NCBI GenBank assembly: GCA_943787745.1
Contig: CALSNJ010000002.1
Span: 124,001-188,000, forward strand
Reading direction: 5' to 3'
Source of the DNA: an uncultured Alphaproteobacteria bacterium
Lineage (GTDB): Bacteria > Pseudomonadota > Alphaproteobacteria > UBA6615
DNA: 64,000 nt
Positions 18,016 to 25,058 of the stretch are shown here, in pieces. Both the position numbers and the translations under genes were made by a program. Position 1 is the stretch's first letter; each line of letters opens with the position of its first letter. The notes under the pieces are model-generated. The model had not been told where the DNA came from. It saw nothing but the letters and a program-made list of their open reading frames with translations, and made no database searches.

Positions 18016-18831
18016 TTAGGGCAGGTCCCAACCAACCCAGTTGCAGACCGCTTCGCCCATAACCAGCTCGAGATCGCGTCCCGACAACCAGGGCAGTTCT
18101 TCGGTAAACAGGGTCACGCATTCCTTGTAGCTGCATTTCATGCGGGACAGGTCCGTTCCCCAGAAACAACGATCGGGCCCGAATGCGTCAAAAATACGGT
18201 GCAGATTGTCGTGGATGTCTGTGTGCGGATATGCGGCCGAGGAGTTTCCATTCGCACCGGACATTTTGACGGCGATATTGGGGTGCTTCGCCAACGCGAG
18301 GAGCTCCGGCAAGGTTTCGAAAGACTCCACGCCCGGTTTGAATGGGTTGGCACCCAGGTGGTCAATCAGGAAAGGAATATCGGGGTACTTCTCCGCGATT
18401 TCACCGAGTGTCGGCAGGAATGTGTGTGCCAGAAGGCCGATCGGCATCTTCTGCTCATTCGCAATCGGCCAGATCCAGTCCAGCGTGCCGTCGGTCGGCC
18501 AAGTCTCGCGACCCGGTGCAATAAACAGGAAGCGCAGACCCAGCATGCCGGGCGTGTCGGTCCAGCCCGCGAGCTTGGGAGCGCTGCGCTCTTCTTCGTC
18601 CATATGCACCCAGCCCAGCACCCGGAATCGGTCGGGATGGGCGTTGGCCGCAGCAATCGCCACTTCGTTACCGTTCGGGACAACCCCCGGAGGGTGCAGG
18701 ATGACGCGGTCGACGCCGGCTTCCTCCATCTCGGCGATCAGGTCTTCGCCGGTAAAGTTCATATCCTGACGATGGATGGGTGACATCTGGGTGTTGATCC
18801 AGATGTGGACCTGTGAATCGACGATCAGCAT
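18016..18831 (-). CDS. Amidohydrolase_2 family TIM-barrel hydrolase/decarboxylase
   Basis: 271 residues. N-terminal DSQVHIW gives the first metal-site region (HxW rather than HxH, common in this family), FLIDHLG contributes a His and FWGTDLSRM the Asp. Relatives include ACMSD-like decarboxylases and lactone hydrolases (4-sulfomuconolactone or L-fucono-lactonase types). The gene lies just downstream of a GMC oxidoreductase and a dihydroxyphthalate-decarboxylase-like gene on the same strand, suggesting a small catabolic cluster, though 95 bases separate it from the GMC gene. Substrate unknown. Confidence 0.87.
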   Translation of the reverse strand: MLIVDSQVHIWINTQMSPIHRQDMNFTGEDLIAEMEEAGVDRVILHPPGVVPNGNEVAIAAANAHPDRFRVLGWVHMDEEERSAPKLAGWTDTPGMLGLRFLFIAPGRETWPTDGTLDWIWPIANEQKMPIGLLAHTFLPTLGEIAEKYPDIPFLIDHLGANPFKPGVESFETLPELLALAKHPNIAVKMSGANGNSSAAYPHTDIHDNLHRIFDAFGPDRCFWGTDLSRMKCSYKECVTLFTEELPWLSGRDLELVMGEAVCNWVGWDLP

Positions 18832-18926
18832 GTTTGTTCTCCCCGGAGTTGTGTTTTCAGCAATATGCCCGAACTCGCCGTTGAGCGCGCAACGGATCTG
18901 GGCACAAGCTCATGTCGTGAGCGGAA

Positions 18927-20537
18927 CTAGCGCGCGTCTTCCAGAATCATGTCGGAGGCTTTTTCTCCGATCATGATCGAGGGAGCGTTCGTATTCCCCG
19001 AAATAAGCGTCGGCATGATCGAGGCATCGGCCACCCGCAAGCCCTCGAAACCCCGTACGCGCAGACGCTCATCGACGACCGAGCTGGGGTCAGGTCCCAT
19101 GCGGCATGTGCTAACAGGGTGATAGCTGGTGCGGGCTTTGCGGTGCAGGTAATCGACGATTTCGTCGTCCTTCACACAATTGGGTCCTGGCTCGTGTTCT
19201 TCCACGACATATTTCAGGAACTCCGACTGGCCGGTGATCTTGCGCATGATCTTCACCGCGCCCACCAGAACATCAATATCCTTCTGGGCGGTCATGTAGT
19301 TGGGCTGAATTTCCGGAGCCGCGAACGGATCGGCCGAGAGGATACTTACATGGCCGTGGCTTTCGGGGCGCAGCAAGGCGGATACGATGGTCGCGCCGGG
19401 GAAGGGATAGGGGTTGCCGCCGACTTCCGGGGAACTGAACAGCATCAACTGAGACTGAATGTCCGGTGACACAGCGGATGGGTCCACCTTGAAAAAGCCC
19501 TGCGCGAAAGACACGCCCATAGAGAGCAGACCTTTCCGGTTATAGGCGTACTGCATGGCGGTCTTCATGCGGATCGGGAAGCTGTTGACCACGTCATTGA
19601 CCGTGAAGCGTTTGTTCAGGCGGAACATCAGCGGGGCGTTGATGTGATCGCGCAGATTGGCCCCGACACCGGGTATGTCTGCGACCACATCGATCCCGTG
19701 ACGGCGCAGCAGTTCCGATGGCCCCAACCCGGAGAGCTGGAGCAATTGGGGGGAGTTGATCGCCCCGCCGGAGACGATGATTTCCCGCCCGGCCAGTACC
19801 GTGACGGTTTTACCCTTTTGATCGTATTCGATGCCGCTTGCACGCTTGCCTTCAAACAGAATGCGCAAGGCGTGGGCTTCGGTGGCGACGGTCAGATTCG
19901 GGCGCTTGCGGGCAGGCTTGAGATAGCCGACAGCGGTCGAGCTGCGGCGACCATTTCGCATGGTCCACTGGCTGTACCCAAAGCCGGTCTGGTCGGCGCC
20001 ATTGAAGTCATCGTTGCGTGGATGTCCGGCTGCCTCTGCGGCGTCGATGAAAGCTTCGGCCAGAGGGTGCTTGTCATAAGGGTCGGATACGGCGAGGGGG
20101 CCGCCGACGCCGTGATACTCGTCTTCGCCTCGTTGCTGATCCTCGGCCTTGCGGAAATACGGCAACACGTCTTCATAGCTCCACCCGGTGTTTCCGAGCT
20201 GGCGCCACTGGTTGTAATCTTCTTTATGGCCGCGGATATAGACCATGCCGTTGATGGCACTGGAACCACCTAGCACTTTGCCCCGGGGCTGAACGACGCG
20301 ACGGTTTAACCCCTCGGGGTTGGCTGCGGTCGAGTAGAGCCAGTTCACGGCAGCGTTGGAAAAGTGTTTGCCGTAGCCCAAGGGGATGTGGATCCAGGGA
20401 CTTCTGTCTTTGACCCCGGCTTCGAGCAACAGCACCGAATGTTTGCCGGATTCACTCAGCCGGGCCGCGAGGACACAACCGGCACTCCCGGCCCCGACGA
20501 CGATGAAATCGAACGTTTCGGCTTCAGTTCCGGCCAT
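18927..20537 (-). CDS. GMC-family flavin oxidoreductase (choline dehydrogenase-like)
   Basis: 536 residues from ATG 20537, chosen because the FAD motif FIVVGAGSAGCVLAARLSES starts 10 residues in and AGGAAA lies upstream; the longer open frame reads into the preceding gene. GKVLGGSSAINGM is the GMC signature, YHPVSTCRMG carries the catalytic His, and SGNTNAPSIMIGEKASDMI the C-terminal Asn region. An alcohol is oxidised with FAD as cofactor. It starts 2 bases after the stop of the decarboxylase-like gene, so the two are cotranscribed. Substrate cannot be read. Confidence 0.93.
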   Translation of the reverse strand: MAGTEAETFDFIVVGAGSAGCVLAARLSESGKHSVLLLEAGVKDRSPWIHIPLGYGKHFSNAAVNWLYSTAANPEGLNRRVVQPRGKVLGGSSAINGMVYIRGHKEDYNQWRQLGNTGWSYEDVLPYFRKAEDQQRGEDEYHGVGGPLAVSDPYDKHPLAEAFIDAAEAAGHPRNDDFNGADQTGFGYSQWTMRNGRRSSTAVGYLKPARKRPNLTVATEAHALRILFEGKRASGIEYDQKGKTVTVLAGREIIVSGGAINSPQLLQLSGLGPSELLRRHGIDVVADIPGVGANLRDHINAPLMFRLNKRFTVNDVVNSFPIRMKTAMQYAYNRKGLLSMGVSFAQGFFKVDPSAVSPDIQSQLMLFSSPEVGGNPYPFPGATIVSALLRPESHGHVSILSADPFAAPEIQPNYMTAQKDIDVLVGAVKIMRKITGQSEFLKYVVEEHEPGPNCVKDDEIVDYLHRKARTSYHPVSTCRMGPDPSSVVDERLRVRGFEGLRVADASIMPTLISGNTNAPSIMIGEKASDMILEDAR

Positions 20538-21484: not shown

Positions 21485-21635
21485 CGCCTTACTTCCCCTG
21501 ATGCGTGCCCGGTCTATGCCGGGTTGTGAAACTAATATCTAGCATGAACATTTAATAGGTACGATACGATGTTGCGGAAAACTCGAGCCTGTTAGAATGG
21601 GCACAACAACAATCGACCAAATGAGGAAATTATCC

Positions 21636-22568
21636 ATGCGCGCTGTATTTGCTTTTACGCCGTGGGAGTCCAAACGCCTGATCGGCAAAGCTGTTGCGGC
21701 CCTGCCAGAGGTTAAGCATGCCTTGGAGCATGCTCAGATTGTCATCGCGCATGGGTCCACGAATGTCTATGTCGCCGATGAGATCATGGGCGAGTGTCCG
21801 GAAGCGGATCGCTATGTCTCGGGTCAGGTGATCAACGGGACTCTGTGCCAGACCCAGCCGGAAGAAAAACCGGCGATCCTGCGTCTTGTGAAAGGTGTCT
21901 CTGTGCCACCGGTTCGCACCATGGATGAAACTCTGGCGGGCTGGGATGACACCTCTCTGTTCATCAAGGGGGCAAACGCGGTCGATCATGAATTCAACGC
22001 CGGTATCTTCAATGCCCATCACGCGGCAGGAACCATTGGTTTTGCCTACGGCGCCATATGCGGCACGGGCATTCCGCTGATTGTTCCGGTTGGACTGGAG
22101 AAGCTGGTGCCCTCGATCAAGGCGGCTGCGGCCGAGCTTGGCCATGCCAAGGCGGATTATTTCTACGGCACCAAGATCGGCATGCTGCCCCTGATGAATG
22201 CCAAGGTGATCACCGAGATTCAGGCATTCGATATTCTGTTCGGACTGAATGCCGTTCATGTGGGTGGCGGCGGCGTCTCCGGTTCAGAAGGAACGATTGT
22301 CATTTCTGTCACCGGCGAGGAAGCCACCGTTCGTTCCGCCATCGAACTGGTTGAATCCTTCAAGGGTGAACCGGCACTCAAGCTCAAGAAGCGCCGCTGC
22401 GCGACTTGTTTTGCGCCACCACCGGCCTTTACCTCGGGGACGGATGCCGCAAAGGAGGTCGGCACGGTCAGTGACGATGAGGCGCGAGTGATCAAGCAAT
22501 GCATCTTCTCGGGAACGGCTGAAGAGGACCTGCCGAACTGGTTCCAGAAGCGTGAAGCTGCGGAGTAA
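21636..22568 (+). CDS. Conserved protein of unknown function
   Basis: 310 residues. ATG 21636 is used because GAGGAAA lies 8 bases upstream; an in-frame ATG at 21597 has no such site. I do not recognise the family. Visible features: start MRAVFAFTPWESKRLIGKAV, a VIAHGSTNVYVADEI block, GAICGTGIPLIVPVGLEKLVPS, a Gly-rich turn VHVGGGGVSGSEG, and a CATC pair near residue 263 after a Lys/Arg run. No signal peptide or membrane segment. The Nif11-domain gene starts 3 bases after the stop, so they are cotranscribed and may act together. Confidence 0.85.
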   Translation: MRAVFAFTPWESKRLIGKAVAALPEVKHALEHAQIVIAHGSTNVYVADEIMGECPEADRYVSGQVINGTLCQTQPEEKPAILRLVKGVSVPPVRTMDETLAGWDDTSLFIKGANAVDHEFNAGIFNAHHAAGTIGFAYGAICGTGIPLIVPVGLEKLVPSIKAAAAELGHAKADYFYGTKIGMLPLMNAKVITEIQAFDILFGLNAVHVGGGGVSGSEGTIVISVTGEEATVRSAIELVESFKGEPALKLKKRRCATCFAPPPAFTSGTDAAKEVGTVSDDEARVIKQCIFSGTAEEDLPNWFQKREAAE

Positions 22569-22571
22569 CCC

Positions 22572-23354
22572 ATGACCGGCGGCGGGGAAGCGCTGGTTGC
22601 CGGTTTTCTCAATGGTCTCGCCAGACAACGGGTTGTCGACTTCATCAGGGCTGTTGTCGAGGACGAAGCGCTCATGCAGGAGTTGTCTGCCGTCGATCTG
22701 AAGCCGGAGGCGGTGGCGACGTTTGCTTGCCAGAAGGGGTATGTGTTTTCGGGTGATGACCTGACAGATGTCATCGAATCGCGGATCGCGCAGGAAGTAC
22801 CCGAAAGCGAACAGGCCCTGCGGCGGCAACTCCAGCTCGAGCGTGAAGCCAGGGGGTCGTCCGGTCGAGTGCCGTTGCATATCGAAACAGATGCCGCGCT
22901 TCTGGATATCGATCATGCGCCGGATTTTGTGCTCGATCGTGCTTCGATTCTGCGCGGTAACGTGGCGGCCATTCGCGGAATGCCCGCACTCCCAGACTTG
23001 CTCACCTTCATGTCAGATGCCCTCGAACACGCGTTTGACGCTGTCGATCTTGAACAAATCCACTTGCACTATGACTTCAAAAGCATGAAGGCGCGCGCCG
23101 AAACCGCTTATGTGCAGCTGCTCGCGGATGATCGAATTCCCACGGCTATGGCGTCGATTGTTCGGGATCTGGGCATGGATCCCGATGACGTGCTTTGGGA
23201 GTGGCCTGGCATGCGCATCCTGTTCCCAGTCGAACAAGGAGGGCGCGGGGTGTATCGGACGGCAAATTCGGGTGCTTTGGCTGCCCACCGTGATACCTGG
23301 TACGGCTGGACAATGGGACGGGCGTATCCGCAGCGCATGAGGAAACGGGTGTAG
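22572..23354 (+). pseudogene. Nif11-like domain + Fe(II)/2OG-oxygenase-like protein, apparently truncated at its 3' end
   Basis: 260 codons. Residues about 20-75 resemble a Nif11 domain (VVEDEALMQELSAV then TFACQKGYVFSGDDL). Later PGMRILFP and AHRDTWYG (H239, D241) resemble the HxD metal motif of cupin-fold Fe(II)/2-oxoglutarate enzymes, but the sequence ends 20 residues later without the distal His or Arg those enzymes need. Everything after about 23304 is antisense to the acetyltransferase on the other strand. I infer a deletion that removed the 3' ends of both converging genes. The remaining frame is open and could still be expressed. A genuinely short family is the alternative. Confidence 0.6.
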
Positions 23355-23734
23355 GAGTCGTCATCGGCGTCGACGGTGAAGATTTGAACGCCGGTGTGAT
23401 AGCCACGCGAAACAAATCCGTCATGCAAAGCGTTTGTCAGGCTTGTGCCGATCCCCGTATTGCGGAAAAGCGCACCCACATAGACCGAGATCATCTCGTA
23501 TTCGCCGTTCGGTCCGCCCATGCCAAAGGCCAGCCCGACAGGTTCCCCATCCGTCCCGACCGCTCCGATATAGAGCATCTCGCGGTCAGGCGGCGTGGTC
23601 ACCATTTCTCGGAAAACCGGTAGGTAAACGCGGCAAAACGCGGAATTTCGCCGGGGTCCAGTACCGAGATTTTGATGCCGGAAGGGGTCACGCAGGTCAG
23701 CCGGGGATTGGTGAAGAAATGTCCATTCGATCAT
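23108..23734 (-). CDS. GNAT-family N-acetyltransferase, 3' end running antisense into neighbour
   Basis: 208 codons. The GNAT core is clear: ISVYVGALFRNTGIGTSL (acetyl-CoA P-loop RNTGIG) and later FTVDADDDSYTRFLMRCGY. Recognisable homology ends near CGYARPIVQP, about residue 145. The final 60 residues are low-complexity Arg/Ser/Pro text that is the exact antisense of the Nif11/oxygenase gene, with 247 bases of overlap. This is unusual in a genome whose other convergent genes overlap by at most 4 bases, and suggests the native stop was lost in a deletion. Acetylation substrate unknown. Confidence 0.65.
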   Translation of the reverse strand: MIEWTFLHQSPADLRDPFRHQNLGTGPRRNSAFCRVYLPVFREMVTTPPDREMLYIGAVGTDGEPVGLAFGMGGPNGEYEMISVYVGALFRNTGIGTSLTNALHDGFVSRGYHTGVQIFTVDADDDSYTRFLMRCGYARPIVQPYQVSRWAAKAPEFAVRYTPRPPCSTGNRMRMPGHSQSTSSGSMPRSRTIDAIAVGIRSSASSCT

Positions 23735-23837: not shown

Positions 23838-25058
23838 ATGGGCTCAATCGCCGACGCCAAACCGACCGATCACATTGAGGGTACGGGCTACCCACTGGCA
23901 TTCAAGATGCAGCAGGGCACCGAACGACCAGCTGTTCTGGGTGATGGTGAGGCGCGTAATGTCTTCACGGTCGAATCCCGCCAGATGGCTGGTTACCAGA
24001 AGGAAGGTGTGGTTCATGAAGGTGAGACCGGCAGCGTCTGGCGCATGGCGACCGATGAGGGAAAGCATCTCGGAGGAACTGACCTGGCGCCGTTCCCGCT
24101 GGGCTTCTTCAATGCGGGCCTGCATGGGGATCTGATCAACCGTATTCTGACGATCGCGAAGGCACGCGATATCCAGATCGATGATCTGAATATTGATCTG
24201 CTCAATGGCTACTACATCATCGGATCGTTCATTCGCGGTGACGGCGTTGGCTATGGTGAGCCCGCCCAGATCGTCGCGCGCGTTTTCTCTCCGGCCTCAG
24301 CGGCAGACATCTCGGCGCTTATTCGTGATGCGGTGAAGGCCTCTCCGGGGATGGACCTGATGCGGACGTCCTTTGACAACACCTTTGCGATCTATGTGAA
24401 CGGTCGTCGCCGGGTGGTGACCTCCCTGACGAATTCCGACGCGCCGGATGCAACCGACCCTTACAAGACCCACGCCGCGCCGCCTGCGCCTCTGGGCGGT
24501 GCGAATGATTTGAAGGACATCATCTGGAAAACCGGTGTGGTTCAGGATGGCGTTGCGCAAGCCGCTCCGAATGGGACCGATGAAAAACTCAAACGCATTG
24601 TCCGCGCCGTCCCCGGGCACAGTGTCTTGCTTGATCCGGCTGGCGTGACAGAGACCGACACTTATCTCGGTCTGGACGGCATGAGCCATTTCAAGGTGAA
24701 GTCCGATGAACGTATCGATATGGATCAGGCCCCCAGCGGTCTTGGACATCTCGCAGCCGGAATCGCCTTTTGCTACATGACCCAGATCGGTCGCTACATC
24801 GAACACCAGAAGTTTAACATTCGTGGTGTCCGCCTCGTGCAGCACACGCCCTTCGTGACCTCCGGAAACCCGGCGGATGGCAGCTGGACGGGAAAGGCAG
24901 AGCCCGCCGATACCCATCTCTTCCTGTCGGGCGAAGAGGATGATGCGACCCATGAGAAGCTCATGACTATCGCCGCAAACACCTGTTATCTGCATGCCAC
25001 GATGCTGGCCACGCTGGAGCCGGTTGTTGCTGTGGAGCTGAACGGGACCGCGATCTAG
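23838..25058 (+). CDS. OsmC-family protein with two OsmC-like halves
   Basis: 406 residues, about three times a usual OsmC. The N-terminal half has GGTDLAPFPLGFFNAGLHGD, a first OsmC-like core; the C-terminal half has LAAGIAFCYMTQIGRYIEHQ with Cys and, near the end, IAANTCYLHATM, the two-cysteine peroxidase pattern. Osmotically inducible OsmC/Ohr proteins reduce organic hydroperoxides in the cytoplasm. Only the C-terminal half keeps both cysteines, so the N-terminal half is probably structural. The stop overlaps the convergent acetyltransferase by 4 bases. Confidence 0.88.
   Translation: MGSIADAKPTDHIEGTGYPLAFKMQQGTERPAVLGDGEARNVFTVESRQMAGYQKEGVVHEGETGSVWRMATDEGKHLGGTDLAPFPLGFFNAGLHGDLINRILTIAKARDIQIDDLNIDLLNGYYIIGSFIRGDGVGYGEPAQIVARVFSPASAADISALIRDAVKASPGMDLMRTSFDNTFAIYVNGRRRVVTSLTNSDAPDATDPYKTHAAPPAPLGGANDLKDIIWKTGVVQDGVAQAAPNGTDEKLKRIVRAVPGHSVLLDPAGVTETDTYLGLDGMSHFKVKSDERIDMDQAPSGLGHLAAGIAFCYMTQIGRYIEHQKFNIRGVRLVQHTPFVTSGNPADGSWTGKAEPADTHLFLSGEEDDATHEKLMTIAANTCYLHATMLATLEPVVAVELNGTAI

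Follow-up and report, generated by a model that had tools for sequence, protein, structure and literature searches.

Truncated ends of two convergent genes as the probable deletion scar of a proteusin-like RiPP cluster in an alphaproteobacterial genome

Two unrelated genes on opposite strands, an oxygenase gene and a GNAT gene, come to an end at the same place within the window, the 64,000-nucleotide stretch of alphaproteobacterial DNA that was analysed, and the question is what brought them together. The oxygenase open reading frame (22572-23354, plus strand, 260 aa) carries a Nif11 domain (Pfam, 1.3e-08, residues 17-64) and, near its end, the motif AHRDTWYG, in which the His codon of the HxD pair occupies 23286-23288. 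The motif is followed by 15 residues, WTMGRAYPQRMRKRV, and by a stop codon at 23352-23354. The GNAT open reading frame (23734-23108, minus strand, 208 aa) matches Pfam Acetyltransf_1 over residues 52-137 and continues for 196 bases beyond the break, antisense to the oxygenase. A sequence-only reading had described both genes correctly, including their coordinates, the early stop without a distal His and the run of the GNAT frame into its neighbour, and had proposed that a single deletion joined two convergent genes and removed both 3' ends. The comparison with relatives points to a larger loss. With a probability of roughly 0.94, the feature is the deletion scar of an entire proteusin-like RiPP cluster of about 18-20 kb in the lineage of the window. 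This reading is based on full-length relatives of both genes, on the cluster that lies between them in related genomes, on the absence of the marker genes and on the existence of an empty site.

Sixty related genomes were searched, and 24 genomes of the family were among those examined. The similarity of the window oxygenase stops at residue 246 of 260 both in G005, a genome of the same genus (52%), and in G015, of the same family (49%), where the matches lie in open frames of 457 and 393 aa, respectively. Full-length relatives measure 384-393 aa and possess the distal His and an Arg; past the break they read HRDTWYG-SPxxxINLWGP..., with the distal His in QLHAS. As the earlier reading had anticipated, oxygenases continue unbroken past HRDTWYG in G005, in G015 and in three sequences from other alphaproteobacterial families. 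A contig search with the truncated oxygenase alone gave no match, while the alignment-based search did find matches. A natural short variant of the oxygenase was rejected, given that its C-terminus is absent from all homologues. Also rejected was the idea that, in the relatives, the cluster had been inserted into genes that were already short, the oxygenases of other families being continuous across the break.

The GNAT shows the same pattern. Similarity is confined to residues 31-144 of 208 (61% in G019 and 60% in G015, each within a 307-aa frame), and the full-length relatives, 294-307 aa long, go on for about 160 residues after the break. The homologues had been expected to extend past the CGYARP region, and they do, but they end about 160 residues later and not soon after it. 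The first 30 or so residues of the window frame are unmatched in the relatives, and the N-terminus that does match (23620..23690, minus strand) is found in a reading frame different from that of the rest of the remnant (23306..23641, minus strand), whose homologous stretch ends in IVQ. Since its N-terminus is out of frame with the rest, the GNAT remnant is a pseudogene, and it has neither the uninterrupted N-terminal domain nor the C-terminal half of the relatives' form. With an aminoglycoside acetyltransferase model, the GNAT shares no more than a distant GNAT similarity (E 0.00028; 20.7 bits, the cut-off being 300).

The two limits of homology fall together. In BLASTN, the left block ends at 23307 for both G005 and G015, and the right block starts at 23315/23322 in DNA and at 23306 in protein. 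DNA and protein alignments to G005, G015 and G019, in which the ends of the two blocks coincide, place the deletion junction at 23304..23307 (no strand). Two unrelated gene families lose homology at one place, so this is not a chance effect. On the left, the remnant of the Nif11-containing, PhyH-type Fe(II)-2OG oxygenase (22572..23306, plus strand), delimited by the Pfam match, by the stop of homology to the full-length proteins and by the fold of the G015 protein, keeps the N-terminal 245 codons, which extend to HRDTWYG and contain the HxD half of the metal site, and misses the C-terminal 145 or so residues with the distal His and Arg. Its frame then reads 15 non-homologous codons and a stop (23307..23354, plus strand), antisense to the GNAT remnant. 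On the other strand, the accidental continuation of the GNAT frame (23108..23303, minus strand) is antisense to the oxygenase remnant, and the corresponding antisense match in G005 and G015 contains two stops. None of the 24 family genomes holds homologues with the same short C-terminus and the same overlap, the observation that would have spoken against a deletion. A conserved overlap of convergent genes was rejected likewise, the arrangement being seen in no other genome.

When the window frames between 18 and 30 kb were compared with the relatives, the syntenic partners were found to switch at the junction, as a deletion predicts. The left block (18.0-23.3 kb) is collinear with G005:C59 and G015:C55, and the right block (23.3-30 kb) with G015:C3 and G019:C97. 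The left flank is gene X (21597..22568, plus strand), the edge of the former cluster site, which encodes a conserved 323-aa protein with no Pfam and no convincing NCBIfam match. It is present in 17 of the 24 family genomes, often in two copies. The right flank is the gene of an OsmC-related protein (23838..25058, plus strand). On the single contig G019:C97, the GNAT gene at 11.8 kb (plus strand) and the oxygenase gene at 29.9 kb (minus strand) are convergent, as had been proposed, but they are not neighbours, and the positions that correspond to the break are separated by about 18 kb. In G015 the interval measures about 20.6 kb once the two contigs that carry it are joined; their ends share similarity over about 1.3 kb. 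The size of the ancestral interval is an estimate, because that of G015 spans two contigs and the G019 oxygenase is itself internally deleted. The cluster is found between the same flanks on one contig in G019 and on two contigs in G015, and on separate contigs in G005.

From the GNAT side, the G019 interval encodes Nif11-leader precursors with GG motifs, a PoyD-type radical-SAM epimerase (TIGR04517, 516.7 bits against a cut-off of 325), a TolC-type protein, a B12 radical-SAM RiPP C-methyltransferase (TIGR03975, 645.6 bits against 281.85), a MetX-like protein, an AprA-type methyltransferase, NHLM ABC2, NHLM ABC1 with a C39 peptidase, NHLM HlyD and an LpxO/OlsC-like hydroxylase. The three NHLM subunits each score above their NCBIfam cut-offs. 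The interval is a RiPP pathway with its own exporter. Beyond the family, one locus of G228 unites the Nif11-oxygenase, a 294-aa GNAT, a PoyD homologue (61% identical), a precursor and TolC, and in G374, from another family of the class, HlyD, ABC1 and ABC2 lie beside the oxygenase. Their co-occurrence with cluster genes in other families indicates that both truncated genes are real cluster members. Two precursors that were scanned match the Nif11 leader model TIGR03798 (39.4 and 37.2 bits against a cut-off of 32.3), with no NHLP model among their matches. The intact relatives do contain the PoyD-type epimerase together with the radical-SAM C-methyltransferase. Because the leaders are Nif11 and not nitrile-hydratase-like, the cluster is called proteusin-like and not filed as a proteusin cluster.

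On G015:C3 (L017, 5151-10563 and 13075-13302), about nine to ten Nif11-leader precursor genes stand in tandem; their leaders are nearly identical and their cores, rich in A, V, T and S, differ strongly. Such an array offers one set of tailoring enzymes a large natural library. A further NHLM exporter, with a distant GNAT next to it, was observed in another genus of the family (G007:C60, about 43-50 kb; L026/L114), possibly a second cluster type. At the end of G015:C55, the MetX-like gene has 100% protein identity to that of G019 over 303 residues, against 82% for the version on G015:C3 (L016 10679-11587, L017 1-1291, L018 8085-9314), a pattern that may stem from a mixed bin or from strains having recently exchanged DNA.

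The genome of the window (3.27 Mb, 7 contigs, 97.9% complete) contains neither an above-cut-off match to PoyD, NHLM ABC1 or TIGR03975, nor a precursor peptide, nor a second piece with the C-terminal half of the oxygenase or of the GNAT, as judged from per-family and per-protein searches for marker genes. A tblastx comparison of the cluster with the window returned only linked noise outside the flanks, so that no further cluster remnants are recognised there. These results bear on the reading that contig ends were wrongly joined at 23304-23307 and that the real genome retains the cluster. The junction is indeed known from one assembly only. However, it lies in a contig of 1.56 Mb, the join reproduces the order and orientation of the relatives, with gene X to the left and OsmC to the right, minus about 18-20 kb, the marker genes of the missing part are on no other contig, and the GNAT remnant shows a separate decay, all of which makes an assembly artefact extremely improbable.

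The deletion probably proceeded as follows. In the ancestor, the cluster would have lain between gene X and the OsmC-like gene, as it now does in G015 and G019, with the Nif11-oxygenase gene at its left end and the GNAT gene at its right end, both reading inward. One break inside each gene, followed by end-to-end joining, would have removed the 3' ends of both genes plus everything between them, and would have created the accidental 48-nt tail of the oxygenase frame and the 196-nt antisense tail of the GNAT frame. The joining was probably helped by a few bases of microhomology. The donor ends in the relatives read ...TACGGCTCG... and ...AGCTGG..., compared with GGCTGG in the window, which suggests an overlap of about 3 nt shared at the join, as seen from relatives that are not the true ancestor. 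The frame change in the GNAT remnant would then represent a separate, further decay.

The same site is also seen without the cluster. In G001, G004, G009, G020, G021:C5, G023 and G019:C117, gene X directly adjoins the OsmC-like gene with a gap of about 100-150 bp. Empty, full and scar sites are therefore three states of one site. In G021:C9, gene X is followed by about 42 oxygenase residues and then by a jump to the sequence before an amidase gene. This is a second, independent scar (L087, 7724-7849 and 12921-13162), and about 5 kb from it lies an orphan precursor with a frame shift. The G019 oxygenase is devoid of about 190 internal residues (L018, about 18600-19320, on G019:C97), and the remaining cluster there looks intact. 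Damage to the oxygenase arose separately in G019 and in G021, so that loss is a recurrent feature of this locus. Such partial deletions in relatives are what would be expected if the cluster had been eroded stepwise in the window lineage too, the present junction being merely the last step. Nevertheless, no intermediate was seen, and both remnants are free of large gaps up to the same place, for which one join is the simplest explanation, so that stepwise erosion appears unlikely. The earlier proposal that both 3' ends were lost in one event accordingly stands for the final junction; internal losses may have preceded it, and the frame change of the GNAT came in addition.

What was lost from the oxygenase can be judged from its intact form. 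In the aligned full-length proteins, H242, D244, H330 and R341/R347 are conserved and the HRDxW motif is kept, as in PhyH-type enzymes; the window protein has the HxD pair and lacks the distal His and Arg. A model of the G015 oxygenase reached a mean pLDDT of 89.8 when built with 21 sequences (45, a poor value, with 3 sequences). In this model, residues 110-393 match Fe(II)/2OG dioxygenases, a comparison for which Foldseek was also used, and the best structural match is PtlH (Z 15.7, 226 residues, rmsd 3.7 A, 18% identity). With a modelled catalytic domain of residues 110-393 and a break at 248, the domain would be cut in half just past the first two metal ligands. On the basis of structure and conservation, the window protein should hence be unable to form an active site. 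Between species, the N-terminal half of the oxygenase diverges much faster than the catalytic half (22-48% identity in the first 50 residues against about 72-80%). The fusion of an N-terminal Nif11 domain to a PhyH-type 2OG oxygenase was observed in intact clusters (L016 75-1253, L011 286-1443, L135-L137), where the peptide leaders are also Nif11. This is an unusual combination, and the titles and abstracts of the papers searched yielded no report on Nif11 domains fused to oxygenases, an absence that proves little.

The stub could also be functional as such, with its Nif11 part serving for instance as a peptide-binding module. The frame has remained open over 245 codons, its substitutions are not accelerated (the remnant has 34 private ones, the intact proteins of G005 and G015 have 32 and 38) and its Nif11 score exceeds those of the intact relatives (35.4 versus 24.7 and 22.1 bits). 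Yet the catalytic domain is cut through its middle, the short form is present in no other genome searched, and the precursor, the dedicated transporter and the epimerase are all gone from this genome, which renders a functional short oxygenase highly improbable. A wider view, in which the X/OsmC site is a hot spot of repeated gain and loss of Nif11-leader/PoyD clusters and the stub persists thanks to a remaining role of its leader-like Nif11 domain, for example in binding a peptide, is very unlikely as a whole. Under the preferred reading of a deletion scar, the open 245 codons and the lack of an excess of private substitutions mean that the deletion is young or that the remnant is not entirely free of constraint; judging from these counts, the event is probably young relative to the divergences from G005 and G015.

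The lost pathway resembles several known systems. Deletion scars of secondary-metabolite clusters are known in principle, for example from losses of cyanobacterial toxin clusters, and the present one, with truncated end genes between conserved flanks, does not differ from them in kind; no paper on loss scars of proteusin clusters was found, which again proves little. Like the polytheonamide (poy) clusters, the intact relatives encode a PoyD-family epimerase, a B12 radical-SAM C-methyltransferase and Fe(II)/2OG-type hydroxylases; in the poy clusters, PoyB/C are the C-methyltransferases and PoyI is the hydroxylase, a putative Fe(II)/2OG enzyme according to PMC9505594. They differ in using Nif11 leaders instead of nitrile-hydratase-like ones, in an oxygenase with its own Nif11 domain, in encoding a dedicated NHLM exporter with TolC and a GNAT, and in lacking a LanM-type dehydratase among the annotated genes of the interval. 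The export system corresponds to NHLM export in its ABC1-ABC2-HlyD composition and its GG-type leaders, but is here coupled to epimerase and C-methyltransferase tailoring and to TolC. By cluster context, the GNAT recalls the selidamide-type enzymes such as that of phaeornamide, which likewise comes from a proteusin-like alphaproteobacterial cluster (PMC9505594), whereas in the cores seen here no Lys follows the GGK site. Both proteusins and Nif11 peptides have been named among the RiPP precursors whose leaders are unusually long (PMC10858898).

For annotators, both window frames are fragments and should be labelled so. Experimental interest lies not in the scar but in the intact clusters of G015, G005 and G228, which join Nif11 leaders, a PoyD-type epimerase, C-methylation and a Nif11-tagged oxygenase. 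The event itself is of a familiar and ordinary kind, another instance in an unstudied lineage, though very cleanly documented. The loss of clusters is usually inferred from absence. Here, one small family displays at one site an empty state, a full state and at least three differing broken states, through which a modified-peptide pathway can be traced base by base as it is gained, decays and is lost.
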